Shown: piece by piece, positions 1-53,253 of the stretch
Layout: the number at the start of each line of letters is the position of its first letter
Position numbering within the stretch: position 1 is the first letter of the stretch
Origin: Candidatus Wallbacteria bacterium
GTDB taxonomy: Bacteria > Muiribacteriota > JAQTZZ01
Direction: 5' to 3'
Assembly (NCBI GenBank): GCA_028687545.1
Contig: JAQTZZ010000002.1
Location: forward strand, 1-64,000
DNA: 64,000 nt
Notes under the pieces: model-generated
Database searches by the model: none
Seen by the model: only the letters and a program-made list of their open reading frames with translations
What the model was told of the DNA's origin: nothing
Translations under genes and position numbers: made by a program

Positions 1-425
1 ACGCGGTTCTGCGGAAAATCACTCCAGTCTATCGCACAGACAGGAGCGGGAATACTGAGATCATCGATTATTACGTCTGCTTCACGAGAGTTGTGGACGG
101 CTGCGAAGTGCTCGGCAAGCGCGGGGACGGCATCGGGATCCTCGTAGGCAGTGAAGGCGTAGAGTCCTGCATGAAGATCTGGAGGAAGATCGAATCCAGC
201 GGAAGCCGCGGGATACAGAAGCTCTTGCCTCCGCAGCAGGCCCTGGAAAACGCCAAAGCAGATATCATGAAGAAAGACTCAAGCAATATTTTCGCCTGGA
301 CACTGGGTTATTACTCCCCTGATTTCGACGAGAAAGCCTCAGTGGAAATGAAACCCTGCTATCATTTTTATACAGCCTCAGGCGCGATTTTCCATGTAGA
401 TGCAGTCACAGGAGTGTTGCTGTAA
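1..425 (+). CDS. C-terminal part of a secreted caspase-like/TolB-like paralog (5' truncated by window)
   Basis: The frame is open from base 3 to a TAA at 423-425, with no start of its own, so this is the last ~140 codons of a longer gene. It aligns by eye with the C-termini of the two large proteins at 40343 and 43018: the shared RVVDG motif, then GYYSP, then a KPCYHF…HVDA.TG ending. The last ~45 residues resemble the PepSY/YycI-type ending in which a protein closes with x-DAxTGxx. The sequence is clearly more diverged than the 40343/43018 pair. Function is unknown; a secreted or periplasmic location is inferred from the signal peptides of the intact paralogs. The gene converges on the deacetylase gene 41 bp away. 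Confidence 0.8.
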   Translation, partial: AVLRKITPVYRTDRSGNTEIIDYYVCFTRVVDGCEVLGKRGDGIGILVGSEGVESCMKIWRKIESSGSRGIQKLLPPQQALENAKADIMKKDSSNIFAWTLGYYSPDFDEKASVEMKPCYHFYTASGAIFHVDAVTGVLL

Positions 426-23939: not shown

Positions 23940-24188
23940 AAGTTATTTACTCCTAAAATGTCGAGTTCAGAATATTTTCCCGGTGATTTTCCTTCTCCTG
24001 AAAATATTCCATCCGTAATAAAGCAGTCATATCTCCATGCCCAAGCTTCGTCTCTTCGAATTGCCGGACTCAATTATACCCGAATTTCCCGCAAACCGTT
24101 TCAATCATCCACTCTTTTATACTTAACCCCGCTGATTTAATTCTCTGAATGTTAATGCTGAGATACGGTCTCGTTTTCCTTACTTTGA

Positions 24189-24602
24189 TTATGGTCTGTT
24201 TGCAATTGATTCTATGCTGTCAAGCAGTCTTCTCATAAAATCAATATTAATAACAACTTCTTTTTCTTGTTCATGTATATAGCGCCATTCGACAAATCCA
24301 TTTGAATGTTTGCTAAACAGATCATCGAAGTCAGAATTTGAATATTTCGTTAGGTTTATTATTTCTTGCCTCATCGATGAATCAAGCATGGTAAATAGTT
24401 TGATCAACTCGTGCCCTTTAGAAGATTGATTATTTTTCACAAGCAAATACTTGAGATAAAGTTCGATAGAAAATGCATAATTAACGACACCAGGGACCAT
24501 TAACATTCCAAACATACCATTTGCTAGCGGCCTTTTTTCCTGACATCTTTCTGCAGCTTTTTTAAACAGCGATGCGTTAGTTTTCAGAAATTCTATATTC
24601 AT
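24189..24602 (-). CDS. HEPN-like helical protein
   Basis: 137 aa from ATG 24602 (AGGGG 5 nt upstream). All-helical, with the pattern FSIELYLKYLL … GHELIKLF … FVEWRYIHE that is typical of HEPN-superfamily proteins of the AbiU2/abortive-infection kind. The strict Rx4-6H ribonuclease motif is absent (R-Y-I-H instead), so it may be a non-catalytic or divergent member. AT-rich, separated by 78 bp from the membrane-protein gene upstream on the same strand. Confidence 0.55.
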   Translation of the reverse strand: MNIEFLKTNASLFKKAAERCQEKRPLANGMFGMLMVPGVVNYAFSIELYLKYLLVKNNQSSKGHELIKLFTMLDSSMRQEIINLTKYSNSDFDDLFSKHSNGFVEWRYIHEQEKEVVINIDFMRRLLDSIESIANRP

Positions 24603-24680
24603 CACATCCCCTTAAAATTTATTCTGTGACATACAGCATCCTTGAGTCTCAACCAATTTTAAACTCGCATGAAATTTTAT

Positions 24681-26315
24681 TCACACTTCTTTGATTGCCT
24701 TATCAATCAACTCGTTTAATTTTAATTCACTCAATTTATCAGAAGTAACTTTCACTACATACATAATCATAGCCGGGTTTGCATCGTGATCTGCTAATTG
24801 AGAGATATTCATTCCTAATCTGAAATGAAGACCATCAGACAATTTTCTTCCTTCACCCGGTTTAACAATCAATTCTGTGCATTTGGAGTAATCCAGTTCG
24901 GCTGTATTCATCCCTTTATAAAAATAATCCTTGCACTCATTGACACTGTAACGAGAAGTTCCTGTTTTTTCATCAAAATAAAATGCCATTAGTGAAAGTA
25001 TTGGGGCTAAGGTATTCTGCAATTCAATCCTTTTTTCATTACCATATTTTCCAAATGAAATTCGCATGGTTAAATGAAGAAACCAATACAAAATCTCATC
25101 TCTAATTTCTAGTAATTTGGATGATTCGTCTTTTGAATTGGAAGAAGTTTTATTCCTTATACTATTTATATCCTGTGCACATTGATAAGACGCCTCAACA
25201 ATTGAAGCTGCCAAGTTAATAATGTTGGGCTGTTTGGCCGTTGGAGATTTCTCCGTAGTTACAGAGTTGTTCCCTGAATGGAACTTAACCTTTTGGTCCC
25301 AATTGGCAGGCTTATCAGCTGATTTAGTCTCAATAAACAGATTAATGCTTTTATTTTCAGGTAAATTTTCAAAAGTTAATGTTCCCTCAGATGATTTCCA
25401 TATATATCGATCTGTATGAAGGGATGGTATTTCATCAGGGATGCCCAATTCGTCAAATAAATATTTTAGAGTAATCTTGAAAACTTCATTTTTCTGTTCA
25501 AAATCCGATTCATTCATTGTTAAAAACAATTTAATCATATAGATTATGTCATACATTGAGAAGATAGCAGTATTCCATTTGATGCCATTGAATTCAGTTA
25601 AAGGTCCATTTGATCTATACCCGCGTAAATTGAATTTTTTTAAATCTTCAGGAGTGCATTTTAAATCATCAGGAGTGCATTCGATCAATTCAGGCGACTC
25701 TATAAAAGGTTGATTTAAACAGTAATTTCCTATCTTAGTTAAAATATGATTTTTAGTTTTGGAACCCGGAACATCATTTGCAGTTGTTTTTAAATAAAAA
25801 TCCAAGCTTCTGTAAATATTTGTCCCATACTTACGGTCAAGATCTGCAGCAAACAGCTTCTGAATATAGCCGACCATAGTGCTTGGAGGGATCAAAGTCA
25901 TCAGCATGACGATAATAGGATAAAACAAGCAAAATGCTGCATACGAATTCTGATGATGGTTGAAAAAATAAATCGCCATTCCGATGCTTAAGGGCCATTT
26001 TGAATAGCATACTATTGAAGAGCAAGCATCTGCAATGAATATTGCAGGCCAGAGTTTAGCAGCTTTGTATCTGACGAATGGCCAGAGAAGGTTATTCCAT
26101 GCAATGACGCCAATTAGAATACTTCCAATGCTATTATTATCAAGCAAACTAAAGGGGACAATCAGCTGGGAAACATACAATGGTAACTTGCCCCATTCAA
26201 CAGCCCTCAGCCAGCACCATTGAATATTATCATCAAGAGTATGATTCTTTGGGTACCATCTAAAAATGAAAACTACTGCGAAAAAATAGAGTGTGATGAT
26301 TAATGTCCAGGGCAT
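24681..26315 (-). CDS. Unknown protein with N-terminal membrane domain and long soluble C-terminus
   Basis: 544 aa; I do not recognise the family. About four to five hydrophobic segments lie in residues 1-155 (LIITLYFFAVVFIFRW at the start, IIVMLMTLIPPS near the end). The remaining ~390 residues are soluble, with a helical part near 370-420. It contains a near-perfect 7-residue repeat (CTPDDLK/CTPEDLK). Its start overlaps the HNH gene by 16 bp, so the two are almost certainly made together. Codons are A/T-rich compared with the flanking operons, suggesting transfer. A membrane effector or anchor partnered with a nuclease is one reading. Confidence 0.7.
   Translation of the reverse strand: MPWTLIITLYFFAVVFIFRWYPKNHTLDDNIQWCWLRAVEWGKLPLYVSQLIVPFSLLDNNSIGSILIGVIAWNNLLWPFVRYKAAKLWPAIFIADACSSIVCYSKWPLSIGMAIYFFNHHQNSYAAFCLFYPIIVMLMTLIPPSTMVGYIQKLFAADLDRKYGTNIYRSLDFYLKTTANDVPGSKTKNHILTKIGNYCLNQPFIESPELIECTPDDLKCTPEDLKKFNLRGYRSNGPLTEFNGIKWNTAIFSMYDIIYMIKLFLTMNESDFEQKNEVFKITLKYLFDELGIPDEIPSLHTDRYIWKSSEGTLTFENLPENKSINLFIETKSADKPANWDQKVKFHSGNNSVTTEKSPTAKQPNIINLAASIVEASYQCAQDINSIRNKTSSNSKDESSKLLEIRDEILYWFLHLTMRISFGKYGNEKRIELQNTLAPILSLMAFYFDEKTGTSRYSVNECKDYFYKGMNTAELDYSKCTELIVKPGEGRKLSDGLHFRLGMNISQLADHDANPAMIMYVVKVTSDKLSELKLNELIDKAIKEV
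25639..25680. repeat. In-frame 21-bp tandem duplication inside the 544-aa membrane-protein gene
   Basis: Two copies of TTTAAATC-T/A-TCAGGAGTGCAT side by side, differing at one base. Being 21 bp long it adds seven codons without a frameshift, which points to a recent slippage or duplication event. Confidence 0.85.
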
Positions 26316-27070
26316 TGAACAACCGCCAAATTTGATAACAATTTACCGATACGACTAGCTCTTTCATTCAACTTGCTTTCTTTACTGCCAGTCAAAACAA
26401 AGATTTTGTCCGACATCTGTGCTGGGGTATTTCTGTTGGTAAATACTAATCCCCCGGCCACTTTAAATTTCCATACTGAAACATTATTGTTTACGTTATC
26501 TTGTATTCCCTCATATGAAAGCATCCCCAAATCAATTTTTAGATGGTTAGTCATTTTCCGTTTGAAAAAGGAATCCAAAATATTGTCTCCAAGTTTTGTA
26601 GGAAAACAAACATCAATGAAACATACGGGGTTTAGTAGAACATTCCAATGGAAGTATACAAGGCCTTTTACAATAAATATAAAGAGCTGCTCACCTTCTT
26701 CTTGCACGAAAGGAATCGCTATGTGCTGTGAATAAATTCCGTTCTCAACAGCCCAGTAAAATTGATAGCCCTCTTCAAGTGATTTTTTTAGCTTTTTATT
26801 CCTATTAAGACGTTTTGCTCCATCTTCTTCTAAAATTTTCAAAGAATTTTCTTGTCGGCCACCAAAAGGAAAAATTGTAAGACAATAATTCTCAAGCTTG
26901 GATTTTTCATTGTTGCATTTTCTACAAGCAGGAACTTTAGGTAGATTATTTCTCTCGTCAATATTGGAAAACCATTTTTTTGCAAAAACATGATCTGCTG
27001 TCATATTGTTAGAATCATCTGGATATGACCCGCAGTATACACATGGTTGATTTTTAAATTTCTTGCTCAT
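26300..27070 (-). CDS. HNH-family nuclease
   Basis: 256 aa. The N-terminal ~60 residues form a compact zinc-supported HNH (His-Me finger) motif: C10-x2-C13, D26-H27 (ADHVFAKKWF), C49-x2-C52-N53 (CRKCNNEKS). This fold cuts DNA, less often RNA. The C-terminal ~190 residues are not recognised and could give specificity. First gene of the AT-rich set on this strand; its last 16 bp overlap the membrane-protein start. Weak Shine-Dalgarno (GAGA). Pairing with a membrane protein and a HEPN-like gene suggests phage defence or a mobile-element role. Confidence 0.78.
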   Translation of the reverse strand: MSKKFKNQPCVYCGSYPDDSNNMTADHVFAKKWFSNIDERNNLPKVPACRKCNNEKSKLENYCLTIFPFGGRQENSLKILEEDGAKRLNRNKKLKKSLEEGYQFYWAVENGIYSQHIAIPFVQEEGEQLFIFIVKGLVYFHWNVLLNPVCFIDVCFPTKLGDNILDSFFKRKMTNHLKIDLGMLSYEGIQDNVNNNVSVWKFKVAGGLVFTNRNTPAQMSDKIFVLTGSKESKLNERASRIGKLLSNLAVVQCPGH

Positions 27071-27222
27071 TTACTATTTCTCGAAACTATCGTTAATCAT
27101 GCATTTAATTTTACTCCTTCACCTTTATGTTTACAAAAAAGCTCAGGTAAAATACAATGTTGACAAGAAAGATCATTGTCGTTTGAGTCGAGCTCTGTCA
27201 TTCAACAGGTATGAATTAATCA

Positions 27223-27254
27223 GCAACGGCAAGGCCTTGGAACCTTGCCGTTGC
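27223..27254. repeat. Perfect 12-bp inverted repeat
   Basis: GCAACGGCAAGG, an 8-nt loop (CCTTGGAA), then CCTTGCCGTTGC. No T-run on either side, so a simple rho-independent terminator is unlikely; an operator, a structured RNA or a repeat remnant are options. Confidence 0.75.
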
Positions 27255-27375
27255 CTAATGCATAGCTTACTGCTGCGGCTTTTTCTTGGCTTAGCTTCTG
27301 CCTTTGAGCGGCTTCATGCCAAAATTGCCCAATGCATTGTTCTTTTTCCAGTGCCATAGAACTCATAAATAGGCA

Positions 27376-27402
27376 TGGATTCCTGCTTCCGCAGGAATGA
27401 CG
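27376..27402. repeat. ATTCCTGC-GCAGGAAT dispersed repeat (dRS3-like)
   Basis: The core is ATTCCTGC-TTCC-GCAGGAAT, flanked TGG…GACG. This form (TGGATTCC-GC…GC-GGAATGACG) is a widespread extragenic repeat in many bacteria and resembles the Neisseria dRS3 sequence; the comparison is from memory. Confidence 0.6.
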
Positions 27403-27458
27403 AAAGAAACGCAGTTTAAAGGTTGCGTTTTAATAACTGCTCAGGCTTTCAGTCCTTT

Positions 27459-30053
27459 TCAATTCTCCTCAGCCAGCAGTTCTTCCTCAGACTCCTTTTT
27501 CTTGAAGCAGTTCCCGTTCTTCTCCATGTCGAACTTCACAGCCTTCACATGCCAGATCTCGCGGGCATAGTCGGCGATGGTGCGGTCTGAGCTGAATTTT
27601 GCCATGTTGAGTGTGTTGAGGATCGCCTTTCTGAACCAGACGTCAGGATTCTTGTAATCCCGGTCGATTTTCTCCTGGGTCAGGCAGTAATCCTGGAAAT
27701 CAGCCAGAATGAAATAGCGGTCTTCGTTGAGAAGTGCCGAAATCAGGGGTTCGAACAGGTTGTTCTGGCCCAGCGAGAAAAATCCGCTGGAAATCAGGTT
27801 GAAGATCCTGCGGAGATTCTGGTCAGCTTCAAATACGGCTCTCGGGTTGTAGCTGTGGTTGCGCTTCATTGCCTCGATTTCCTCAGCGCGTTTTCCGAAG
27901 ATGTAAATATTCTCTTCCCCTACTTCTTCCATGATTTCGACGTTTGCGCCGTCCAGCGTTCCGATGGTCAGGGCTCCGTTGAGTGCGAATTTCATGTTCC
28001 CTGTGCCTGAAGCTTCCAATCCGGCTGTGGAAATCTGTTCAGACACGTCGGCGGCAGGTATGATCACCTCAGCCAGCGAAACCCGGTAGTCTGCCAGAAA
28101 CACCACTTTGAGCTTGCCCTTGATGGAGAGGTCGCTGTTGATGATGTCAGCCACATTATTGATCAGCTTGATGATCAGCTTGGCAGTGTAATACCCTGGA
28201 GCAGCTTTGGCGGCATAGATGAATGTCCTGGGATGGATGTCCAGACTCGGGTCATCCTTAAGCTTGAGGTAAAGATGGATCACGTGCAGGATGTTCATCA
28301 GCTGCCGCTTATATTCATGCAGTCTTTTTGCCTGCACGTCAAAGATGGAATCCGGATCGACCTCGATCTGGTTGTTTTCCAGGATATATTGAGCCAGATT
28401 CAACTTGTTCTGACGCTTGATGCCCGAAAATTTCCTGCGGAACGTCTTGTCCTTGGCTTGCGGAATCATTTTTTTCAGCTCATTCAGATTGGTGACCCAG
28501 CCGTCACCGATACAGGATGTCAGGAGGCCGGCCAGTGCGCTGTTGCACTTTAAAAGCCAGCGCCTGGGAGTGATGCCGTTGGTCTTGTTGTTGAACCGCT
28601 CAGGCCACATCTGATAAAAATCCGGAGCCAGGTTTTCCTTGATCAGGCGGGAATGAAGCTCTGACACGCCGTTCGTGGAATGGCTGCCCACCATGCAGAG
28701 ATAGGCCATCCGCACCCTCTGGTCCTGGCCTTCCGCAAAAATCGACATCCTGGTCAGTTTGTCCATGTCGCCAGGGTACTTGATCATCACTTCTTTCAGA
28801 AATCTGTGGTTTATCTCAAACAGGATCTGCAGATGCCTGGGCAGGAATTTCTTGAAAAGAGCCACACTCCAGGTTTCCAGGGCTTCCGGAAGCAGGGTGT
28901 GATTGGTGTATCCGAAAACAGCTACCGTGATGTCCCAGGCTTTTTCCCAGGGAAGTTTTTCGATGTCCACAAGTATTCTCATCAACTCGGGGATGGCCAG
29001 GGTCGGATGCGTATCGTTCAGCTGGATCGCCACCTTGTCGGTAAAATTCGAAAAATCAGGGTGGGCTTTCTTGTAGCGCCGGATAATGTCTTTGACAGTG
29101 CAGGAGACAAAGAAATACTGCTGTTTCAGCCTGAGTTCCTTGCCCTGTGTCAGATCATCGTTCGGATAAAGCACCTTGCTGATATTTTCCTGGATATTTT
29201 TCTCTTCTACTGCCTTTATGTAATCTCCGTGGTTGAAAAGCTGGAAATCGAATTCCTCATGTGCGCGGGCGGACCAGAGCCTGAGTGTGTTCACATTGTC
29301 AGTACCATACCCGATCACAGGAGTGTCGTAAGGAAGGCCGGTCACTTTTTTGGTGTCCACCCAGCGCATCCTCTGCATTCCCTGATCGTCCAGATAGTTT
29401 TCGATCCGGCCTTCGAATTCTACAGTCTGTGAGTATTCCGGCCGCACGATTTCCCATGGGTTGCCATGTTTCAGCCATTCGTCCGGCTCTTCCACCTGCC
29501 AGCCGTCCACGATCCGCTGGCGGAAAATTCCGAATTCATAGCGGATGCCGTAGCCGTATGCAGGGAGCCCCATGGTGGCCATGGAATCCATGAAGCAGGC
29601 TGCCAGGCGTCCCAGGCCGCCGTTTCCAAGGCCGGCGTCTTTTTCCAGATCCCTCAAGCGCTCGATGTCAAAGCCGAGTCCTTTCAATGCCTGTGCATAG
29701 CGGTCATAGACTTCCAGGTTGTACAGATTATTTCCCATCAGCTGGCCGATTAGAAACTCAAGGGAGAGATAGTAGACCCGCTTGGCATCAGTATAGTAAT
29801 AATGATTCTGGGTGAGTGACCAGCGCTCCACAACGCGGTTGCGGATCGAATAGGCGCAGGACATGTACCAGTCGTAATCCGTGGCGCTGTATTCATCCTT
29901 GCCGAGCCAGTATTTAAGGGCATTGATAATGGAGTGCTTAATGGCTTCATCTGTCATGCTGCAGAAATATTCCCTGAAATGATCAATTTTTTTCCCGCTG
30001 TCATTCAAAGAGGGATCTGTAACCTGCTTTTTTTTCGCGTTCTTTTCCTTCAT
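27459..30053 (-). CDS. glgP: Glycogen/alpha-glucan phosphorylase
   Basis: 864 aa from ATG 30053, chosen because AAGGAG lies 6 nt upstream; the frame stays open to 30110. It releases glucose-1-phosphate from the ends of alpha-1,4-glucans using pyridoxal phosphate. The cofactor motif EASGTGNMKFALNG is intact with PLP Lys688, and the family signature YLSLEFLIGQ and nearby GLGNGGLGRLAACF are present. Close to the usual GT35 length (~800-850). A 57-nt leader holds an earlier ATG in frame. No other glycogen gene is adjacent. Confidence 0.95.
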   Translation of the reverse strand: MKEKNAKKKQVTDPSLNDSGKKIDHFREYFCSMTDEAIKHSIINALKYWLGKDEYSATDYDWYMSCAYSIRNRVVERWSLTQNHYYYTDAKRVYYLSLEFLIGQLMGNNLYNLEVYDRYAQALKGLGFDIERLRDLEKDAGLGNGGLGRLAACFMDSMATMGLPAYGYGIRYEFGIFRQRIVDGWQVEEPDEWLKHGNPWEIVRPEYSQTVEFEGRIENYLDDQGMQRMRWVDTKKVTGLPYDTPVIGYGTDNVNTLRLWSARAHEEFDFQLFNHGDYIKAVEEKNIQENISKVLYPNDDLTQGKELRLKQQYFFVSCTVKDIIRRYKKAHPDFSNFTDKVAIQLNDTHPTLAIPELMRILVDIEKLPWEKAWDITVAVFGYTNHTLLPEALETWSVALFKKFLPRHLQILFEINHRFLKEVMIKYPGDMDKLTRMSIFAEGQDQRVRMAYLCMVGSHSTNGVSELHSRLIKENLAPDFYQMWPERFNNKTNGITPRRWLLKCNSALAGLLTSCIGDGWVTNLNELKKMIPQAKDKTFRRKFSGIKRQNKLNLAQYILENNQIEVDPDSIFDVQAKRLHEYKRQLMNILHVIHLYLKLKDDPSLDIHPRTFIYAAKAAPGYYTAKLIIKLINNVADIINSDLSIKGKLKVVFLADYRVSLAEVIIPAADVSEQISTAGLEASGTGNMKFALNGALTIGTLDGANVEIMEEVGEENIYIFGKRAEEIEAMKRNHSYNPRAVFEADQNLRRIFNLISSGFFSLGQNNLFEPLISALLNEDRYFILADFQDYCLTQEKIDRDYKNPDVWFRKAILNTLNMAKFSSDRTIADYAREIWHVKAVKFDMEKNGNCFKKKESEEELLAEEN

Positions 30054-40307: not shown

Positions 40308-40336
40308 TTGATTTTAAGACGGATTTGGACTATAAT
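40308..40336 (+). promoter_or_regulatory. Leaderless promoter of the first caspase-like paralog
   Basis: TTGATT (40308-40313), 17-bp spacer, TATAAT (40331-40336). The -10 ends 6 nt before ATG 40343, so the predicted +1 is the A of the start codon. There is no room for, and no sign of, a Shine-Dalgarno. Confidence 0.75.
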
Positions 40337-40342
40337 GTATGT

Positions 40343-42910
40343 ATGAAATTGATTCAATTGGTTTTAGCTGTTCTGATGATAATGAATTGTTCCATTGTTT
40401 CTGCTCATGATATAGTTTTTCTTCCTGGACAAGGTGTATTGCCTACGCCAACCCCGCATCCTACCCCGACGCCCACGCCAACTCCGACGCCTACGCCAAC
40501 GCCGACCCCCACGCCGACTCCCACGCCCACGCCAACTCCGACCCCATCTACGGAATTAAAAATTATTTTCAGCAGTTACCGTGGAGACTATACCGGCATT
40601 TACATGATGGGTGCGAACGGCAGTGACCAGAAAAGGATCACACCAGTCAATGCCCCCACTTTCAGCCATGCAGTCTCACCGGTTGGAAACAAATTTGCCT
40701 TTGTGACAGATTATATTGACAATCAGCGCGAACTGTATGTGATGGGTACTGACGGGTCTGGCCGTAAAAAAGTCACTGACGACAAAATCTCTGAGATGCA
40801 TATCAGTTATTCAGCAGACGGCAGCTCTCTGGTTTATTCTCTGTTAAATGGTACAGGCAGCGGGCTGTTGGACAAAGCCTACGACATAGTGACAGTGAAA
40901 ATCGATGGCACAGGATGGAAAAACATTACCAATACTCCTGACAGTGAGGATTATGCTTCCTTTGTCCCTGATGGAACAAAAGTAATTTTCGAAGTCACAG
41001 ACAGTACAAAAGCCACAAATATTGGAATAGTGAAAGCTGACGGCACTGGATATACCAAACTCACCACAGACGGAGTCAGCTATTCTCCCTCGATTTCCGG
41101 GGACGGCACCAAGGTCGTATTCAGTTCCAGCCGCGAAGCGGACCTGCAAAGCATTTACATTGGAGATGCCAGCGGGACCAAACCCAAGAAAATCGCCTCT
41201 GTAAAAGAGAAAAACTGCCTGCGTCCGAAGATTTCCGCTGATGGAGCAAAAGTGTATTTTCTGGTGGAAACCGTTTCCGGGATGCAGAAAACTTACGATA
41301 TAGGAATGGTAGGTTCAGACGGCAGCTCGCAGACATTGATCACGACAAAATCCGATGTTACTGATTTCGACGTTGCACCAGACGGCGTCAGTGTGGTCTA
41401 TGCTTCCCAGCATGAGGGGAACCTTCAGATTTATGTGATCAACTCCCAGGCTGGAGGGCCTACCAAGCTGACCACCAATGACGGAGCCGATGCAGAACCC
41501 AGGTGGATCACCTACAAAAATTCCAAAGCGCTGATAAAAATGAGAGTGATTGCAGCCGGGCAGTATCCTGCAGAGGCTCAATCTCTCGACTGCACTGACG
41601 CGGACGATTTCATCGATATCCTGAAATCCCAGAATTATAACCTGGAAGCAGACATCAGGGACAAAGAGATCCTCAAATCCTCTTTTGAACCGCCATCTCT
41701 GATCGATATTATGATGTATACAGGTCGTGGCAGTGCTGATATGGCGACCTTCCAGAACGGCACTTTTTCTTATAGAGACTTCAAATGCAATAATGTCAGG
41801 CACTTGCTGCTCTCCTGCAGCGAATCGCTGACAAACCACTGGGTCAATACTCAAAGAAATAATTCCAGGCTGCTCACAATACTTGGATACCGCATGGCTT
41901 CATTCGACAAACCTGCAGATAACGGCATAATCAAAATCTTCTGCACTGGCATCAACGGCAAATCCACTGATGATGCCCAGGCTTTTTTTGATGCCTGGAA
42001 ACTGGCCAACTGCTCCTATGATCAGGAAACGGCCAGGTGCTGGAGCGGAATCATTAACAATTCCTATTACATGAGCCAGAGCAAATTCGATTTAGTCGAC
42101 ATGGGTGACCCTGGTAACAGTATGTTTTCCAGAGAGGACAACATGGAATCTTCCAAAATTTCGTCGGCTGGATTTAAAGCACATCCGCTGGAAGTCCCAG
42201 TCCCTCTTAAAGAGAATCTCAGCTATGCTTTTACTGTGGAAAAGGCTGTTGACGAGGAATTTCCAGTGATAATGGCTAATCCGATCGAGATACAGCGCCA
42301 GCTTGACTTGAATTCTTTCTTGAACTCAGGCTATGATTGTGAAATTTCCCCATCAGGCGGTCTGCGGATTTTCCGGACCCCTTCAAACCTGAACACTTCC
42401 AAAGGCTTCAGGGAAGCGTATAACGCCACTGTAACTTTCATCGATTCCTATCTGGGCGGCCTCCCGCCTGACGCCGAACTTAAAGAGATCGTTCCTATTG
42501 TCCGTACCAGTTCAGGTACAGATGTATCCATCAATTACTTTCTCTCCTTCGGCAGAGTGGTCGACGGCAAGGAGTTGTCAGGATTCAGCGGAGATTGCCT
42601 GAATTTCCTTGTGGACCGGTTCGGAATTGCTTCGTGCACTGTCCTCTGGCGGCAGCTCGAACAGTCTCCACCACAAAAAGACCTTCGGCTCCTCGATCCC
42701 ATAGAAGCTCTGACCAGGGCGGCTTCTCAGATCTCCTCACTGATCAAAACCGGGGGGAATCTCACTTTCATCAACTTCACTGTGGGATATTATTCACCGT
42801 CTTTCCTGAAATCAGGTCCAGTGCAGTGCAGACCCTGCTATCATTTTATCACTCGCGATGGAAGCAGGATCCATGTCGACGCATGCAACGGCAACCTGTT
42901 CAATGACTAA
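40343..42910 (+). CDS. Secreted Pro-Thr-linker/TolB-propeller/caspase-like protein, copy 1 (catalytic His lost)
   Basis: 855 aa from ATG 40343, where a signal peptide begins (MKLIQLVLAVLMIMN…SAHD); the longer frame from 40169 would bury it. After the signal come ~35 residues of Pro-Thr repeats, a TolB/PD40-like propeller (~75-395; LYVMGTDGSGRKKV, SPSISGDGTKVVF), and a clan CD (caspase/gingipain-like) fold (~400-600). In copy 2 the catalytic pair is GHG…ACC; here it is GRG with Arg462 while Cys492 remains, so peptidase activity is probably lost. The end has a PepSY-like tail (CRPCYHF…HVDACNG). Likely an extracellular or periplasmic binding protein. Confidence 0.85.
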   Translation: MKLIQLVLAVLMIMNCSIVSAHDIVFLPGQGVLPTPTPHPTPTPTPTPTPTPTPTPTPTPTPTPTPTPSTELKIIFSSYRGDYTGIYMMGANGSDQKRITPVNAPTFSHAVSPVGNKFAFVTDYIDNQRELYVMGTDGSGRKKVTDDKISEMHISYSADGSSLVYSLLNGTGSGLLDKAYDIVTVKIDGTGWKNITNTPDSEDYASFVPDGTKVIFEVTDSTKATNIGIVKADGTGYTKLTTDGVSYSPSISGDGTKVVFSSSREADLQSIYIGDASGTKPKKIASVKEKNCLRPKISADGAKVYFLVETVSGMQKTYDIGMVGSDGSSQTLITTKSDVTDFDVAPDGVSVVYASQHEGNLQIYVINSQAGGPTKLTTNDGADAEPRWITYKNSKALIKMRVIAAGQYPAEAQSLDCTDADDFIDILKSQNYNLEADIRDKEILKSSFEPPSLIDIMMYTGRGSADMATFQNGTFSYRDFKCNNVRHLLLSCSESLTNHWVNTQRNNSRLLTILGYRMASFDKPADNGIIKIFCTGINGKSTDDAQAFFDAWKLANCSYDQETARCWSGIINNSYYMSQSKFDLVDMGDPGNSMFSREDNMESSKISSAGFKAHPLEVPVPLKENLSYAFTVEKAVDEEFPVIMANPIEIQRQLDLNSFLNSGYDCEISPSGGLRIFRTPSNLNTSKGFREAYNATVTFIDSYLGGLPPDAELKEIVPIVRTSSGTDVSINYFLSFGRVVDGKELSGFSGDCLNFLVDRFGIASCTVLWRQLEQSPPQKDLRLLDPIEALTRAASQISSLIKTGGNLTFINFTVGYYSPSFLKSGPVQCRPCYHFITRDGSRIHVDACNGNLFND
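40442..40546 (+). repeat. Hexanucleotide Pro-Thr coding tract, copy 1
   Basis: 35 codons of nearly pure Pro-Thr (with one His) written with mixed CCx/ACx codons, mostly CCG/CCC and ACG/ACC. Low complexity; forms an extended linker between the signal peptide and the propeller. Confidence 0.9.
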
Positions 42911-42982
42911 AGCTCAAGAACAGATTTCACCAACTCTTTCAAAATGAAGCTTCCTGTTTAGTCAACATATGTCAAGCCCCAC

Positions 42983-43011
42983 TTGCCTAAAAGACATTTT
43001 TAGACTATAAT
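42983..43011 (+). promoter_or_regulatory. Leaderless promoter of the second caspase-like paralog
   Basis: TTGCCT (42983-42988), 17-bp spacer, TATAAT (43006-43011), then 6 nt and ATG 43018. Same geometry as the promoter of copy 1, and the bases around it (GACTATAATGTA-GTATG) are shared. Confidence 0.75.
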
Positions 43012-43017
43012 GTAAGT

Positions 43018-45648
43018 ATGAAAATATTTCTGTTGATTTTGACGATTTTCCTGATCGTGAATTGTCCTGACATTTCTGCACATGATATAGTTTTTCTTCC
43101 AGGACAGGGTGTATTGCCTAATCCTACCCCACATCCTACTCCGACCCCCACTCCTACTCCAACACCGACTCCTACTCCTACACCTACTCCAACACCGACA
43201 CCGACTCCTACTCCTACACCTACTCCAACACCGACCCCCACTCCTACTCCAACACCGACTCCTACCCCCACTCCAATTTCAGATTTAAAAATCCTGTACA
43301 GCAGTTATCAAAATAATTACACCAGTGTTTTTATGATGGATTCCAACGGAGCCAATCAGAAGAGAATCACACCCGATGCTGCCCCCACTTTTAGCCATGC
43401 AGTCTCTCCTCTTGGAAAAACCTTTGCCTTTGTGACCGATACCCTGGAAGCAGCTCAGCGTGACATGTATGTGATGGGAATTGACGGCTCTGCACGTAAA
43501 AAAGTCACAGATGATAAAACGACTGAAATTCACATTAATTATTCTGCGGACGGCAATTGGCTGGTTTACTCCCTGCAGAACGGATCAGCCAGCCCCAGCG
43601 GGTTGCTTACCAAAATCTACGACCTGGTGGTTGTAAAAACAGACGGCACAGGCTGGAAGAATGTCACCAATACTCATGACAGCGAAGACTTTGCCAGCTT
43701 TTTCCCTGACGGGAAAAAAATAATTTTCCAGGTTACCAACGATTCCAATGAAACATATGTGGCAGTGGTTGGAGTTGACGGCACAGGTTATACCAAACTC
43801 ACCACAGACAAAATGAGTTTCAACCCCTGCGTTTCGGCTGACGGAACTAAGATCGCATTCAATTCCAAGCAGGGCGGGACACAGGAGTGCATCTACATTG
43901 CAGATGCAGACGGCAATAACCCCAAGAAGATAGCTTCTTTAAACGGCCTGAACTGCACCCGCCCTAAAATTTCCGCTGACGGGACCAGAGTCTATTACAT
44001 GGTGGAATCAGTTCCAGGGGTCATGAAAAGTTATGATGTGGGAGAAGTCGCTTCAGACGGCAATGCGCCGCAGCTGGTCACTACCAAATCCAGTGTGCTG
44101 GATTTCGACGTGGCCCCTGACGGGGTAAATGTGGTTTATTCCTCCAAGCACGAAGGTAATCTGGAGATCTATACAGCCAACATCACGCTGGGAGGATTCA
44201 CAAAGCTGACCACCAACCCTGGAGCTGACGCAGAGCCCAGGTGGCTGAACGCCAAATCCGATGTGACTGTAGTCAAAAAAATGAGAGTGCTAGCAGCAGG
44301 TGCTTACTCTCCCCCGAACAAGCCACTCGACAACACGGACGCCGACGATTTCATCGCCGCCTTGAGCGCACAGGGTTATACTCTGGAAGCCGACATCCGC
44401 GATGCAGCGATCAACCAAGCTTCATTCGAGCCGTCCACGCCGATAGACATCCTGATGTACACAGGACACGGCACAGACGACATGGCCTGCCCGCCTAGCG
44501 GAGATACCTATTCATTCAGTGACTGCAAATCCAACAAAGTCAAACACATCATGCTTGCCTGTTGCCTGTCTGTCACAGATAAATGGGTAGACGCCCAGAA
44601 AAACAATTCGAATCTGCTCACTGTACTCGGTTATTACATGATCTCATGGGACAAACCTGCAGACAACGAAATCGCCAAGGCGTTCTGCTCAGGGATCAAC
44701 GGCAAATCCACAGACGATGCCCAGGCCTTTTTCGACTCCTGGAAACTGGCCAACTGCAACTATGATCCGGAAATGGCTAAACGCTGGAGCGGTGTGATCA
44801 ATAAAACTTATTACAAAGGTCAGAGCAAATTTGCTTTTTTCAACCAGGACGATCCCAATGACAACACTTGTTTCAGAGAGGGAACAGAGAGTTTAACCAA
44901 AATCTCAGTCTCAGGACTCAAAGCCAGATCATTGGAAACTCCGATCCAGCTCAGCGACAATCTCAGCTATGCTTTCGCAGTTGAAAAGGCCATTGACGAT
45001 GAATTTCCGGCGATAGTTGCCAATCCTGTCGATGTAAAGCGCCACGTTGATTTGAAATCATTCCGCCGCTTTGGTTATGATTACGAAATTTCCCAGGCAG
45101 GCGGTCTGCGGATTTTCCGGACCCCTTCAAATCTGAACACTTCCAAAGGTTTCTGGCAAGCGTATGCCACTGCTGTAAATTTCATCGAGGCCAATGGCGG
45201 GCTCCCTGCTGACGCCGAACTTAAAGAGATCATACCCATCGTCCGTACCTCATCCGGCATGGATGTGACCATTAATTACTTCCTCTCCTTCGGCAGAGTT
45301 GTAGACGGCAAAGAACTTTCAGGAATCAATGGAGACTGCATAAATCTCCTAGTGGACCGGTTTGGAGTAGCCTCTTACACTGTCCTCTGGCGGCAGCTGG
45401 AAAAATCTCCGCCTCAGAAAGAGTTGATTCTCGATCCAATCGAAGCTCTGAACAGGGCGGCTCCCCAGATATCCTCCCTGATCAAAGCAGGAGCACAAAT
45501 CACTTTCATCAACTTTACAATGGGATATTATTCTCCGTCCTTCAGGCAATCCGGCCCAGTAGAGTGCAGACCCTGCTATCATTTCATCACCAGCGATGGA
45601 AGCAGGATCCACGTTGATGCAGAGAGCGGTAACCTGCTCACTGATTAG
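43018..45648 (+). CDS. Secreted Pro-Thr-linker/TolB-propeller/caspase-like protein, copy 2 (catalytic dyad intact)
   Basis: 876 aa, the same domain order as copy 1 and highly similar along its length. Signal peptide ([15 protein letters not shown]…SAHD), ~53-residue Pro-Thr linker, propeller (~95-415), caspase-like domain (~420-620), PepSY-like end. The hydrophobic strand plus YTGHG gives His484, and HIMLACC gives Cys515 (or 516); this H-G…A-C spacing is the clan CD signature also used by DUF6345-type proteins, so a cysteine peptidase is predicted. Substrate unknown. Begins 107 bp after copy 1 with its own leaderless promoter. Confidence 0.85.
43117..43275 (+). repeat. Hexanucleotide Pro-Thr coding tract, copy 2, with a 36-bp tandem duplication
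   Basis: 53 codons of Pro-Thr repeats, longer than copy 1 and with different codon choice (CCT, CCA, ACT, ACA). Two 36-bp blocks (43165-43200 and 43201-43236) are identical but for the last base. Changes by multiples of 6 bp keep the frame, so length may vary between strains. Confidence 0.9.
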
Positions 45649-45689: not shown

Positions 45690-47171
45690 ATGCTGAGAAA
45701 TATTTTTCTGATTTTGCTTTTCGCCATTACTTCCGGCTGCGGAAAAAACACCATAACTCCGGTTCAGGACAAAGAACACCTGGGCAGCGGAAATAAATCC
45801 GTGTCAGGGGACTCAGCTGTTGTAGCGCTCAGAAATTCACCTCTGAGCTTCAATCCACTGCTTCCTCAAAACGAAACCTCCCAGCTGATTAACCCTCTGC
45901 TATATGCCAGTGTGGTAAAAGAGGAACCTGATGGTTCGTTTACCGGTGATATTGCCAGAAAATGGGAAATCTCCACAGACGGAAAAATCATCACTTTTTA
46001 TCTGAAAAACATTATCTGGTGGCAGGATGCGATCGAACTCACTGTCGCAGACATCAAATTCACCTGTGCTGCGATCAGATCCGGCAACAGCAATCTGCGA
46101 GAAGCTTTTTCCCGCTGCAGCCTGGAAGTAGTGGATGCATACTGTTTCCGAGCCGTATATGATGAGCCTTTCGCCCCTGCTCTCTGCAGCTGGACTGTTC
46201 CAATTCTTCCTTCACACCTGCTGCTTCGTGAAAATCTGCCTGATTCAGCCTTTAATTATCAGCCGATCGGAGCCGGCCCTTTCAGTTTTACCTCCTATTC
46301 ACAGGATGACACACTGATCCTCAGCGCCAGTCAGAGCTATTTTCTCGGCAGACCGTTGCTTGACAAACTCGTATTCAAGATCATTCCCGACACTGGGAAT
46401 GCCATCAATCTGCTGCTTCAGGGGAAGATCGACATTCTGGAACTCGAACCATATCAGTTTCAGAAATACTCCGGCTCAAGCGAGTTTCTGAACCGATTTA
46501 CAGTGTTAAAAAAACCTTGCACAGACTATATCTCAATCAGATTTTCCAAGGGGACTCCTTTAACCGACCGGAATCTTAGAAATGCTCTCTCACTAGCCAT
46601 CGACAGGGAACGCTTTGAAGGACGCCCCATCTCAAGCCCGTTCCCGCCGGATCGCTTTGAAAACCCTGCTGTCAAACCGATGGAATTTTCCCCGGAAAAA
46701 GCCCGCAAACTGTTGGAATCCCGCGGCAGCGGAGCCGGAGGCAATTCAATCTGCCTGAATTATCCGGCTGAGCTTTCGAATCAGGCAGCGATAATCAAGG
46801 ACTCCTGGGAAAAAATCGGAGTTACAGTTACCCTGAAATCAGGGATCACAACAGAAATCACCGGAGAAACAAACGTGTTTCTGGAGCGGAAAGCTTATGG
46901 GTCTGACCCTGAGTTCTGCGACCTGCCTGACGGAGTCCCGGAAATTGCGCGGCTGATGGCTGAAGGCAGGAGAACTTTGAACATGGATCAAAGAAAAGAA
47001 ATATATGGTCAGGTTCAAAAGATCCTGGCCGAAAGTCAGATCATCATCTTTCTCAGCGCGGAATCAGGTTTTTACGCTGCTGACAAGCGCTTTGCCGGGC
47101 TTAAGTTCGTGCCAGGCAGAGGATTCAATTTTCAGGAATGCAGCGTCCCGCAGGAATTGCAAAAGTATTAG
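45690..47171 (+). CDS. Peptide-type ABC transporter substrate-binding lipoprotein (SBP family 5)
   Basis: 493 aa with a lipoprotein signal (lipobox ITSGC, Cys near residue 18). SBP_bac_5 features: SFNPLLPQNETSQLINPLLYASVVKEEPDG, the WWQDAIELTVADIKFT element, and a C-terminal region listing YGQVQKILAESQIIIFL. It would bind oligopeptides, nickel chelates or similar at the outer face of the inner membrane, but no permease or ATPase gene is next to it, so it may be an orphan that shares a transporter or acts as a sensor. Starts 41 bp after the second caspase-like gene, with its own -10. Confidence 0.88.
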   Translation: MLRNIFLILLFAITSGCGKNTITPVQDKEHLGSGNKSVSGDSAVVALRNSPLSFNPLLPQNETSQLINPLLYASVVKEEPDGSFTGDIARKWEISTDGKIITFYLKNIIWWQDAIELTVADIKFTCAAIRSGNSNLREAFSRCSLEVVDAYCFRAVYDEPFAPALCSWTVPILPSHLLLRENLPDSAFNYQPIGAGPFSFTSYSQDDTLILSASQSYFLGRPLLDKLVFKIIPDTGNAINLLLQGKIDILELEPYQFQKYSGSSEFLNRFTVLKKPCTDYISIRFSKGTPLTDRNLRNALSLAIDRERFEGRPISSPFPPDRFENPAVKPMEFSPEKARKLLESRGSGAGGNSICLNYPAELSNQAAIIKDSWEKIGVTVTLKSGITTEITGETNVFLERKAYGSDPEFCDLPDGVPEIARLMAEGRRTLNMDQRKEIYGQVQKILAESQIIIFLSAESGFYAADKRFAGLKFVPGRGFNFQECSVPQELQKY

Positions 47172-49297: not shown

Positions 49298-52200
49298 TTA
49301 CTGCCCGATCGGCAGGGTCACAATGAATGTGCTTCCCTGGCCATGCACTGATTCCACCCGGATCGTACCTTTATGCATTTCCACAAGTTTCTTTGTGATG
49401 GACAGCCCGAGGCCTGTGCCCTTGACTTTCTTGGTCCTTGATTCAACGATCTGCATGTATTGATCAAAGATCCTGTCCAGCTGCTGCTCAGGAATTCCGA
49501 CGCCCTGATCGGAAACAGCCAGGGTCGCGTAAAGCCCGTTCCTGTCGGCAGAACCATGGAAACCGCTCCGGAATAACCTGATTTTGATCTCACCCTGTTC
49601 GGAATACTTGATGGCATTGCTTAGAAGATTCAAAAGAATCTGGCGCACCCGCTTTTCGTCAGCCCGGATTTCAGGGAGATTTTCTTCGATTTCAGTCAGG
49701 AAGTGATATTTCCCTTTCTTTTCAACTGTTTCAAGCATGGCCTGGACTTCCTGGCCGACTGAGACGATGGTTTCGTCCAGCCTGACTTTTTCGATAGTCA
49801 GCTGAAATTTGCCTGCTTCGATCTTTGACAGATCAAGGATATCGTTGATCAAACCGAGCAGGTGCCTGCCGCTTCTAAGAATCATCTCCAGAGTCTCCCG
49901 CTGCTCCTGATCAAGTTGTGTTTCTCCGACCAGGCCGTCCAGAAACTGCTCGGTAAAGCCGATGATCGAATTCAACGGGGTCCGCAATTCGTGACTCATG
50001 GAAGCGAAGAATTCGTCCTTGATTTTACTGACCCGCTGCAGGTCTTCCAGGGTTGCAGCCAGTTCCATCGTGCGGGCTCTGACCTGTTCCTCCATGCCGT
50101 TGGAATATTTCTCCAGTTCCTCCATCATGCGGTTGAAAGCCTGTCCCAGGCGTTCAAACTCGTCTCCTGTGTTGACCTGGACCTTTCTGGAATAATCCCG
50201 CATGCTCAAGCCGGCAATTCCATCGGACAAAGCCCTGATCGGATTCAGAATCGATTTCCGGATTCCTTTTAAAAGGAGATAAATTACTGCGATAGTGACC
50301 AGAAAATACAAAATGATGTTCTGCCAGAACCACTGGTCCAGCAATTCCCTGACTTTGCCTGCAACAATGAAGATCTTCAAGGTACCTAGATATTCCTTTT
50401 TCTCGGTGAACAGGCAATCGTAAAACTCATACCAGCCTTTGCGGGTCAGAAATACGTGTCCGCCTTCTCCTGTCTGTCTGAGCCGTTCGTATTTTCGCCT
50501 GACAGAGGCAGGTAATTTGATTGATGACAGCTCCTCTGCCTTTACCCTCCCAGGCAGAACGCTGTAATGGTAAATCAGCTGTCCATAAGAATCATAGAAA
50601 GTGAATTCCAGGATCGTGGGGTCGTTTTTCACGATGTCCCTGCAGCTGCTGGCCACCTGATCGTAATTTCTGGCCAAAAGATAAAGCATTGTGGTCCTGT
50701 TGACAGTGCTGATCAGATACCTTCCTGTCCTGTCCACAAAGCTTTTTTCCAGATCCTGAACCAGTCTGTTCGCTCTGACAAAGCCGGTGAGGAAAGCCAG
50801 GGAACAGATCAGAAAAAGGATGCACAGGCGCACGATCAGCTTACTGATCAGCTTGCCGCTCAAAGTCTTCCATTGCAAAAGCATCCGCTTCATGATAAAA
50901 AGGACTGCTAAAACCGCGAAAATCTCCAGAAACAGGGCACTCCACGGGATGCCGCTTTCTTCCGGCTTGTCTGGCAGTGCTTCAGCTGGCCCGGCCGGAA
51001 TTCCAGGTTCTGGTTTCTCTCCAGGGCCGGAAAACAATATGGTGTCAAGCATCAGGTTGGCGTGAAAGGAGTCGCTGCCAGGGCAGCAGCCATACTCTCC
51101 TTCTGTGAACAAGGCAAGGAATGGTTTTCCGAAGGCCTTCTTATACTCCATGCCGAGCTGATTAACCTGTTTTTTCTGCTCGAGCAGTATCTGCGAGCCT
51201 GCGCAATAAAAGGAAAGTCCGCCGGAAAAGTCACCGCCGATCATGGCCCTGGCGCTGAGCAGGCTTACTCCAGGCCGTTTGACCAGTGCCTGGTCATCAA
51301 CAGCCATCAGAACCAGCCGTTCACCGACCCGTACAGGGGAGTAAGTATTAAGACTCCCGTCTTTTTCAGGATTTACGGCCAGAACAAAATGCCTGTCAAT
51401 CCCGTCAGATCCCTTTTTCACCCTGGCCAGCGGGTAATACAACAGATTGTTGAAAATATCTTCCCCATTCCTGATCCGCTCGCTGAATCGGTTATCTGTC
51501 CAGAGATTGTAAACATCCACTGCAGGTTTGCCGTCAATTTCACGGATTCTCTGCAGATCAGCTGCAGTGATCAGTCCTTCCGGCCCAGCTACCCTGAAGC
51601 CGCTCTGAAAATTAAGACCGATCCGCCTGTCTGTATATACTGCCAGCAAAGCAAGTCCGTCTTTTTCCAGCACGTTTCCATTGAAAAATAAGGCCCCCTG
51701 GTTTAGATGAGTGTCACCGCCGAATACAGGCACAGGCCCGAATCTGTCCTTGATCGATTCCAGGATTTCGTTGACATGTTCGTTGTAAAACGAGGCGAGC
51801 AGAAACAGCGCCGGTTTTTTATCTGCAGGCAGCTGTTTGAAAGCCTCCGAAGCAGCCAGCAGGGGATCTCCCCTGACAGCCGGAGCTCCGGCAGCGATGA
51901 ATTCGTGATCATTGCTGCAGAGAGCCAGTAATCCTACCGAATGATCGTTGAAAATCTCCAGAGTGGAATTCATGAAAAATCCTTTTCCAGTAGTAAGACC
52001 CCAGACAGGCACACCTGGAAAAACCCTTGAAACTTCTTCGATAATCGGCTTTTTGACGGAAAAATCATTGGTGGCTGCTATAAAGATCACTGCAGTTTTT
52101 TTCCCGCCAAGCTCCCTAAGCAATGATTCCGCTGCGATCCGACCGGCTTCGGCCGGATCCTTCACAGCAGATGTCCATCCTTGAAAGAAAGAGTTTTCAT

Positions 52201-52300
52201 TCCCCAGGGAGGTCCCGGAATCAGGAGAAGATCTGCGGTCGACCTGACCGTAAACAGACAGCGTCATGACAAGCAATGAGCAGATCAATAACCTGATCAT
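49298..52300 (-). CDS. Exported-FIST sensor histidine kinase
   Basis: 1000 aa from ATG 52300, chosen because it overlaps the cyclase stop as ATGA and begins the signal/anchor segment. FIST_N (~25-220) and FIST_C (~225-425) lie outside the cytoplasm, then a first membrane segment (~455), another (~490), a second extracytoplasmic domain (~510-650), a membrane segment (~655), HAMP (~685-735), a coiled coil, HisKA with His770 (SMSHELRTPLNS) and HATPase_c with GTGLGLSITKKL. A ligand bound by FIST outside should set autophosphorylation. Last gene of REC-cyclase-kinase operon. Confidence 0.92.
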   Translation of the reverse strand: MIRLLICSLLVMTLSVYGQVDRRSSPDSGTSLGNENSFFQGWTSAVKDPAEAGRIAAESLLRELGGKKTAVIFIAATNDFSVKKPIIEEVSRVFPGVPVWGLTTGKGFFMNSTLEIFNDHSVGLLALCSNDHEFIAAGAPAVRGDPLLAASEAFKQLPADKKPALFLLASFYNEHVNEILESIKDRFGPVPVFGGDTHLNQGALFFNGNVLEKDGLALLAVYTDRRIGLNFQSGFRVAGPEGLITAADLQRIREIDGKPAVDVYNLWTDNRFSERIRNGEDIFNNLLYYPLARVKKGSDGIDRHFVLAVNPEKDGSLNTYSPVRVGERLVLMAVDDQALVKRPGVSLLSARAMIGGDFSGGLSFYCAGSQILLEQKKQVNQLGMEYKKAFGKPFLALFTEGEYGCCPGSDSFHANLMLDTILFSGPGEKPEPGIPAGPAEALPDKPEESGIPWSALFLEIFAVLAVLFIMKRMLLQWKTLSGKLISKLIVRLCILFLICSLAFLTGFVRANRLVQDLEKSFVDRTGRYLISTVNRTTMLYLLARNYDQVASSCRDIVKNDPTILEFTFYDSYGQLIYHYSVLPGRVKAEELSSIKLPASVRRKYERLRQTGEGGHVFLTRKGWYEFYDCLFTEKKEYLGTLKIFIVAGKVRELLDQWFWQNIILYFLVTIAVIYLLLKGIRKSILNPIRALSDGIAGLSMRDYSRKVQVNTGDEFERLGQAFNRMMEELEKYSNGMEEQVRARTMELAATLEDLQRVSKIKDEFFASMSHELRTPLNSIIGFTEQFLDGLVGETQLDQEQRETLEMILRSGRHLLGLINDILDLSKIEAGKFQLTIEKVRLDETIVSVGQEVQAMLETVEKKGKYHFLTEIEENLPEIRADEKRVRQILLNLLSNAIKYSEQGEIKIRLFRSGFHGSADRNGLYATLAVSDQGVGIPEQQLDRIFDQYMQIVESRTKKVKGTGLGLSITKKLVEMHKGTIRVESVHGQGSTFIVTLPIGQ

Positions 52301-53253
52301 ATCTTTTTTTTCTCGTTTAAAACGAACCACATTTCAATGGGAGAGCGATTTTTAATCTCAACAATCCCTCGTGATTCGCAGTTGAAAGTGTTTTTGACAA
52401 GGTCATGGGTGGCTCTGGAAATGTTCACCCTGCCGGGGGAACCGTTACTTTCGCACCTGGATGCGATATTGACCGTATCTCCCCAGATGTCATAGGCAAA
52501 TTTCGTCTTGCCGATCACGCCTGCCACGACCGGTCCGGTATGGATGCCGATCCTGGCCTCCCAGTAATCACGTCCGGCTCTGGTTTTTTCCTCTTTGGCC
52601 AATTTCATGAACTGCTGAAACTCCAGGCCGGCTCTTACGCAGTTTTTCACTTTTTCCAGGCCGTCGCTCTGCAATCCACCGGCGCACATGTATGAGTCGC
52701 CGATGGTCTTGATCCGCTCCAATCCGTACCTTGCGCTGATGTTGTCAAACTCCTCGAAGCAGGATTCCAGTTCCCTCACCAGTTCTTCCGGAGACATCCT
52801 TTCAGCCATTTTCGTGAAACCCTTCATGTCTGTAAAAAGAACTGTCACCAGATCGTGATATCTGGGAATAGTGGTGTTCGTGGCCTTAAGCTCTTCCGCG
52901 ACATATTCAGGAAGGATGTTGAGTAATAACCTGTCGGATTTCCGGCGCTCCTCGTCGACCTGCCTGAGCAGCAGTTCCAGCGCGAGGTTACGCTTGACAG
53001 CTCCTTCCTCAATCAGATCGAACATCTTATGGATCATGGGAATCACTGTCTGCAGGGATGTTCCGATCTCCTCGGTATACCCCCTTCTGATAAATTCATC
53101 CAAAGCGCCGGATTCGCCGAAATACCCTTCTGTCATTTGTTCCAGCGTCAGAAGGATGGTATTGAGATCTGACCTCAATTTTTTATCGATCTCTTTCATG
53201 GAGGAGGTTTCGATCTCACCGGGAATCGCAGTATTGAGAATCTTCAGTTCCAT
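52297..53253 (-). CDS. Cytosolic class III adenylyl cyclase
   Basis: 318 aa. A helical N-terminal half (~1-125) ends in RRKSDRLLLNILPEYVAEEL, a usual lead-in to the cyclase domain. Catalytic domain: FTDMKGFTKMAE and a second metal Asp; RIKTIGDSYMCAGG with the adenine-selecting Lys; YDIWGDTVNIASR with the Asp, Asn and Arg. The Lys/Asp pair predicts ATP as substrate. Starts inside the REC gene's stop (TGATG) and ends inside the kinase start (ATGA), so all three are translationally coupled; phosphorelay and cAMP may be linked. Confidence 0.93.
   Translation of the reverse strand: MELKILNTAIPGEIETSSMKEIDKKLRSDLNTILLTLEQMTEGYFGESGALDEFIRRGYTEEIGTSLQTVIPMIHKMFDLIEEGAVKRNLALELLLRQVDEERRKSDRLLLNILPEYVAEELKATNTTIPRYHDLVTVLFTDMKGFTKMAERMSPEELVRELESCFEEFDNISARYGLERIKTIGDSYMCAGGLQSDGLEKVKNCVRAGLEFQQFMKLAKEEKTRAGRDYWEARIGIHTGPVVAGVIGKTKFAYDIWGDTVNIASRCESNGSPGRVNISRATHDLVKNTFNCESRGIVEIKNRSPIEMWFVLNEKKKI

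Follow-up and report, generated by a model that had tools for sequence, protein, structure and literature searches.

Why would a bacterium keep, next to a predicted secreted caspase-like protein with an intact His-Cys dyad, a second copy from which the dyad is gone? The question is raised by two adjacent genes in a 64,000-nucleotide stretch of DNA from a Candidatus Wallbacteria bacterium (hereafter, the window, meaning the whole stretch analysed). The window forms the first part of contig C2 in genome G000 (4.54 Mb, 108 contigs), and the genome holds about 10 paralogs of these genes. A further dyad-intact paralog is cut in two by the break between contigs C28 and C2 (L033:5733-7145 and window 1-425), and an exact match to bases 1-126 of the window lies close to the end of C28.

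Organization of the locus

The two genes lie on the + strand, with 107 bp between them.

40343..42910, +: copy 1, predicted secreted pseudo-copy with R462/S493 at the dyad positions, 855 aa
43018..45648, +: copy 2, predicted secreted, dyad-intact caspase-like protein, 876 aa

The first-pass annotation of this DNA had described tandem secreted paralogs with a shared layout, and this description held. The two open reading frames, starting at 40343 and 43018, are intact, and the proteins are 64% identical over the full length. The domain order is common to both: signal peptide, Pro-Thr tract, TolB/PD40-type propeller, caspase-like domain and PepSY end. The N-terminal elements are as follows.

40343..40405, +: copy 1, Sec signal peptide predicted by eye, cleavage at ...SIVSA/HD
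40460..40543, +: copy 1, (Pro-Thr)14 tract
40547..41524, +: copy 1, TolB/PD40-type beta-propeller (profile matches)
43018..43080, +: copy 2, Sec signal peptide predicted by eye, cleavage at ...DISA/HD
43135..43272, +: copy 2, (Pro-Thr)23 tract
43279..44256, +: copy 2, TolB/PD40-type beta-propeller (profile matches)

Both copies are thus predicted to be secreted. The Pro-Thr tracts have 14 and 23 repeats and only 14% identical codons; because the lengths differ and few codons are common to both, the tracts seem to have expanded independently. The profile search bore out the TolB-like propeller of the earlier annotation, with PD40 repeats above the cut-off, partial matches to TolB profiles and sequence matches to TolB structures. 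At 126.8 and 121.6 bits, the window copies scored below the Tol-Pal TolB equivalog cut-off of 343.

Directly 3' of copy 2, at 45690-47171, we observed a lipoprotein-like gene of the SBP_bac_5 (oligopeptide-binding) type. No permease genes were evident beside it, and on reading the gene starts near the other paralogs we saw no shared neighbour, such as this SBP_bac_5 gene.

Fold of the middle domain

The first-pass annotation had called the middle domain clan CD-like. We predicted structures with AlphaFold2, from models built on 6 sequences, and compared them with the PDB by Foldseek.

41537..42088, +: copy 1, caspase-like (DUF6345-type) domain (AlphaFold2 pLDDT 82, pTM 0.82; Foldseek matches to caspases)
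44278..44832, +: copy 2, caspase-like (DUF6345-type) domain (AlphaFold2 and Foldseek)

For residues 421-876 of copy 2, pLDDT in the catalytic-domain block was mostly 83-93, and the model had the caspase order of elements, with His484 at the end of strand 3 and Cys516 just after strand 4. Its matches included CHAT (8tl0, E 3.4e-6), caspase-11 and other caspases, CED-3, gingipain RgpB, legumain and separase. The same search also returned YpeB, the vibriolysin propeptide and YycI; we split the matches by domain type, assigning the caspase group to the middle domain and the YpeB group to the end of the protein. The copy 1 domain, searched alone, matched almost exclusively caspases, MALT1, legumain and gingipain (CED-3 at 2.4e-5, caspases, MALT1, legumain, RgpB), with TM of about 0.5-0.58. 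The predicted models therefore have the caspase-hemoglobinase fold of clan CD, and fold comparison confirms the middle domain as caspase/CHAT/gingipain/legumain-like.

By sequence, a PDB profile search with the domain gave only sub-threshold matches, the window proteins had no match to the Peptidase_C14 profile, and none was found to the PADLOC anti-phage defence models.

The fold admits chemistry other than hydrolysis. Some legumains as well as GPI transamidase act as transpeptidases or ligases, and a domain with this fold and dyad could likewise work as a transpeptidase or ligase, for example in anchoring surface proteins. The fold matches include legumain/asparaginyl endopeptidases and GPI transamidase, and the weak PDB sequence match of the profile was to the HG segment of GPI transamidase (E 0.12). 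On the other hand, caspases, gingipain and CHAT score equally well or better, and we regard a ligase as improbable.

The PepSY-like end

42230..42907, +: copy 1, PepSY-like C-terminal domain (alignment to copy 2)
44968..45645, +: copy 2, PepSY/YpeB-like C-terminal domain (AlphaFold2 and Foldseek)

The C-terminal domain had been labelled PepSY-like at first pass, and Foldseek assigned to it the YpeB/vibriolysin-propeptide fold: YpeB (5boi, 1.6e-5), the vibriolysin propeptide (3nqz, 7.4e-5) and YycI (2o3o). In this part of the model pLDDT was only about 60-86, and the sequence match to PepSY is weak.

The match is to the C-terminal domain of YpeB and to the vibriolysin propeptide; in contrast to YpeB and the PepSY/FTP propeptides, the PepSY domain of the window proteins is C-terminal and fused to a caspase-like domain. 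The N-terminal region of YpeB inhibits SleB in vitro (PMC6660665), and YpeB has been proposed to hold SleB inactive (PMC13393411). YpeB exemplifies the regulation or stabilisation of partner enzymes by PepSY-containing proteins (PMC6660665, PMC13393411).

Catalytic residues

41726..41728, +: copy 1, Arg462 (CGT) at the catalytic His position
41816..41821, +: copy 1, Ser493 (AGC) at the catalytic Cys position, preceded by Cys492 at a non-catalytic one
44467..44469, +: copy 2, His484
44560..44565, +: copy 2, Cys516, conserved in the family, preceded by Cys515 at a variable position

All the residues named in the first-pass annotation are present, namely His484, Cys515 and Cys516 in copy 2 and Arg462 and Cys492 in copy 1. 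The role given to Cys492, which had been taken as the catalytic Cys retained in copy 1, has to be corrected. In the family alignment, which is ungapped here, LLSCSES of copy 1 stands opposite MLACCLS of copy 2. Ser493 aligns with the conserved Cys516, while Cys492 aligns with the variable residue preceding the conserved Cys (A, S, T or C in most of the family). Since the conserved Cys is Cys516 of copy 2 and copy 1 has Ser493 there, copy 1 by this alignment lacks both dyad residues, His and Cys, and not His alone; the dyad codons are CGT and AGC in copy 1 compared to CAC and TGC in copy 2. Thus, of the active/inactive tandem pair proposed earlier, the pairing of an active-type with an inactive-type copy is supported, while a catalytic Cys in copy 1 is not. 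The clan CD pattern of a His-Gly after strand 3 and a Cys after strand 4 is present in copy 2 (His484, Cys516), whereas copy 1 departs from it at both positions (Arg462, Ser493).

Conservation of the dyad and spread of the family

We found both His and Cys in 56 of 58 DUF6345-type domains from Wallbacteria, Bacillota and several other phyla (33 of 35, then 17 more and 6 more read by eye). Weak family matches that could not be aligned (L087, L088) and one very weak match (L044, in G022) were excluded from the count. Conservation of these positions among homologs, on which the first-pass reading depended, is therefore high. The sole exceptions were copy 1 (R/S) and a protein of the related genome G001 (L034:1200-3683, Lys/Ser, or K/S).

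The link to DUF6345 (Pfam PF19872, cut-off 26.9 bits) comes through relatives such as the close paralog L028 (27.9 bits) and the Anoxybacillus protein L061 (51.7 bits); half of the aligned rows match the Pfam family. Neither window copy reached E 1 against DUF6345, though the family is alignable throughout. The Anoxybacillus and Paenibacillus proteins, the latter just under the cut-off, have the same DUF6345 plus PepSY-like layout, and the HG...C motifs are the same across the sampled DUF6345 members.

The family is sparse. Members occurred in 7 of 287 genomes and, as a control, in Methanosarcina acetivorans, and strong relatives in only 3 of 40 genomes of the phylum. A scan of viral contigs and a phage search gave no relatives; one plasmid match, annotated as DUF6345, was found in Deinococcus peraridilitoris. 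Our literature search found no paper mentioning DUF6345 and no function for it. The present analysis assigns a likely fold and likely catalytic residues to a family of no described function scattered over several phyla.

The N-termini of the paralogs vary freely, being papain, B-repeats, a propeller or none. In the papain case, L028:1427-4186 (contig C18 of the window genome), an N-terminal Peptidase_C1 domain (E 3e-53) precedes the DUF6345-type domain, and the PepSY end comes after a long Pro-Ala-Asn tract; two different cysteine-peptidase folds are combined in one predicted secreted protein. Another protein, L031:4757-6043 (contig C46), has a signal peptide, a proline-rich tract and the PepSY end without a caspase-like domain, i.e. 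a free-standing PepSY protein.

A second pair and the independence of the losses

The first-pass annotation had also proposed surveying homologs for a paired loss of His, and a second pair with a dyad loss of its own turned up in G001, the one genome covered that belongs to the same GTDB family as the window genome. Only 6 bp separate the K/S copy (L034:1200-3683) from the intact paralog upstream of it (L034:3690-6722), which has B-repeats and the same propeller-DUF6345-PepSY order. Each of the two tandem pairs found, the only two known, has an intact member and a dead one, and the gene order differs between the pairs, being opposite. No propeller was detected in the G001 dead copy, so the members of a pair need not share a ligand.

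A tree of the catalytic and PepSY columns paired copy 1 with copy 2 (100/100) and placed both in one clade with the G001 pair (99/99). A single origin of the dyad losses was rejected: when the two dead copies were forced into a clade, p-AU was 0.0002 for the two domains combined and 0.007 for the catalytic domain by itself, where L034a and L034b were sisters at 87/84. The PepSY-only tree did not reject the dead-copy clade (p-AU 0.08). As the first two tests reject a common origin, the dyad appears to have been lost twice, separately. If the tandem copies exchanged sequence by gene conversion, an older single loss could in principle go unseen; dS was lower in the PepSY part than in the catalytic domain (0.65 vs 1.7), which leaves room for some conversion in the former and less in the latter. 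Two independent losses beside an intact copy make a natural experiment on why pseudoproteases persist.

The G001 pair also bears on whether the dyad substitutions in copy 1 are an assembly or sequencing artefact of a metagenome-assembled genome. The assembly is fragmented (108 contigs), and one paralog is indeed split between C28 and C2. Still, an artefact would have to account for two separate codon changes (CGT and AGC) in one copy, the copies are about 70% identical at the DNA level and so could hardly be cross-assembled, and the same kind of pair is seen in another MAG; we consider an artefact extremely improbable.

Promoter-like elements

40308..40336, +: promoter-like TTGATT-17-TATAAT, 6 nt before the copy 1 ATG
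42983..43011, +: promoter-like TTGCCT-17-TATAAT, 6 nt before the copy 2 ATG

The -10-like TATAAT ends exactly 6 nt before each ATG, preceded by -35-like TTGATT or TTGCCT, and both sites are compatible with leaderless mRNAs. The leaderless promoter that had been ascribed to each copy is thus represented by a promoter-like element, but other genes have it too. An identical distance from the -10 element to the start precedes five other window genes (45690, 48138, 53777, 63710 and 35517), which suggests that leaderless transcripts are common in this Wallbacterium and makes the spacing look like a genome habit; it does not argue for a special circuit. Nor does a promoter-like site before each gene demonstrate that the two are co-expressed.

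Constraint on copy 1

Is copy 1 merely a duplicate on its way to loss? Its branch in the joint likelihood tree is longer than that of copy 2 (0.34 vs 0.14), possibly reflecting mild relaxation or adaptation. Against decay stand the 855-aa open frame, the promoter-like element that has been kept and the caspase fold predicted for the domain with pTM 0.82. Between copy 1 and copy 2, the catalytic domain had dN 0.26 and dS 1.7, and pairwise dN/dS was below 1 both in the folded domains, by a wide margin, and in the short variable linker. With L034a as outgroup, the changes unique to copy 1 and to copy 2 were balanced in all three domains (18/21 in the propeller, 12/9 in the catalytic domain and 10/8 in the PepSY domain). 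By these comparisons, copy 1 has no sign of decay and is not a pseudogene, and a duplicate bound for loss is very unlikely.

Proposed roles of the two copies

We propose that copy 2 is a PepSY-restrained secreted cysteine peptidase and copy 1 a pseudopeptidase that tunes it, a tentative reading to which we give close to even chances. Copy 2 would act as a DUF6345-type cysteine peptidase of the clan CD fold through His484 and Cys516; the propeller at its N-terminus would bind the substrate or a ligand on the cell surface, and the PepSY domain at its C-terminus would serve as a built-in chaperone or restraint. Copy 1, with signal peptide, propeller, caspase fold and PepSY domain kept and Arg462/Ser493 in place of the dyad, may have been retained for tuning copy 2, either as a heteromeric partner or as a decoy competing with it for substrate or ligand. 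Secretion, peptidase activity, restraint by the PepSY domain and a physical or functional partnership are what we infer here. A relative carries a similar pair with a separate residue loss, which points to some benefit for these bacteria in having a dead protease copy next to a live one.

A serious rival, if a rather unlikely one, is that copy 1, as a pseudoenzyme, has a separate binding function on the cell surface, carried out by the propeller and PepSY domains and with no tie to copy 2, adjacency being the result of tandem duplication only. Copy 1 retains all non-catalytic domains, the N-termini of the paralogs vary freely, a PepSY-only paralog (L031:4757-6043) exists, and recent duplicates are often adjacent anyway. 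However, the dyad was lost in 2 of 4 tandem members compared to none of the remaining 11 Wallbacteria copies in which both positions could be read (one-sided Fisher p about 0.06, computed by hand), and the losses arose twice.

Extending the tuning of copy 2 by copy 1 to the family, DUF6345-PepSY proteins may be undescribed secreted caspase-like peptidases with a built-in restraint, and Wallbacteria may repeatedly have paired an active member with a dedicated extracellular pseudo-caspase regulator. This broader claim we find doubtful; if true, it would be a bacterial parallel, outside the cell, to caspase/pseudo-caspase control.

Relation to known systems

In S9-type propeller peptidases (DPP/POP), the propeller is N-terminal to an alpha/beta hydrolase catalytic domain. 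The window proteins have the propeller in the same place, and here the catalytic domain is caspase-like.

A precedent comes from the orthocaspases and pseudo-orthocaspases of cyanobacteria, which have the caspase fold. As in the window pair, true (HC) and pseudo (YS, YN, YG and others) forms co-occur in most strains, and fusions to propeller-type (WD40) domains are common (PMC8283722, PMC7889975). Pseudo-variants make up 28% of the orthocaspases (PMC8283722), and deletion of one changes stress survival (PMC7889975). The window proteins differ in having signal peptides, a PepSY end and a tandem arrangement and in lacking a Peptidase_C14 match; also, most pseudo-orthocaspases have no accessory domains (PMC8283722), whereas copy 1 keeps all of them. 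Active and pseudo caspase homologs are thus known in cyanobacteria, and the secreted, PepSY-bearing, tandem version appears to be new. Regulation of caspase-like proteins by dead paralogs has been studied in eukaryotes and cyanobacteria, and biochemical tests would be easy to run on a secreted, tandem pair from bacteria.

Other features of the window

The stretch 24001-28000 has a G+C content of 37.5%, compared to about 49% around it. It contains an HNH endonuclease gene (26303-27070) and a gene for a 544-aa protein without a Pfam match, and is possibly a mobile island. Further downstream, at 49301-53253, a FIST-sensor histidine kinase gene adjoins one for a class III guanylate/adenylate cyclase.
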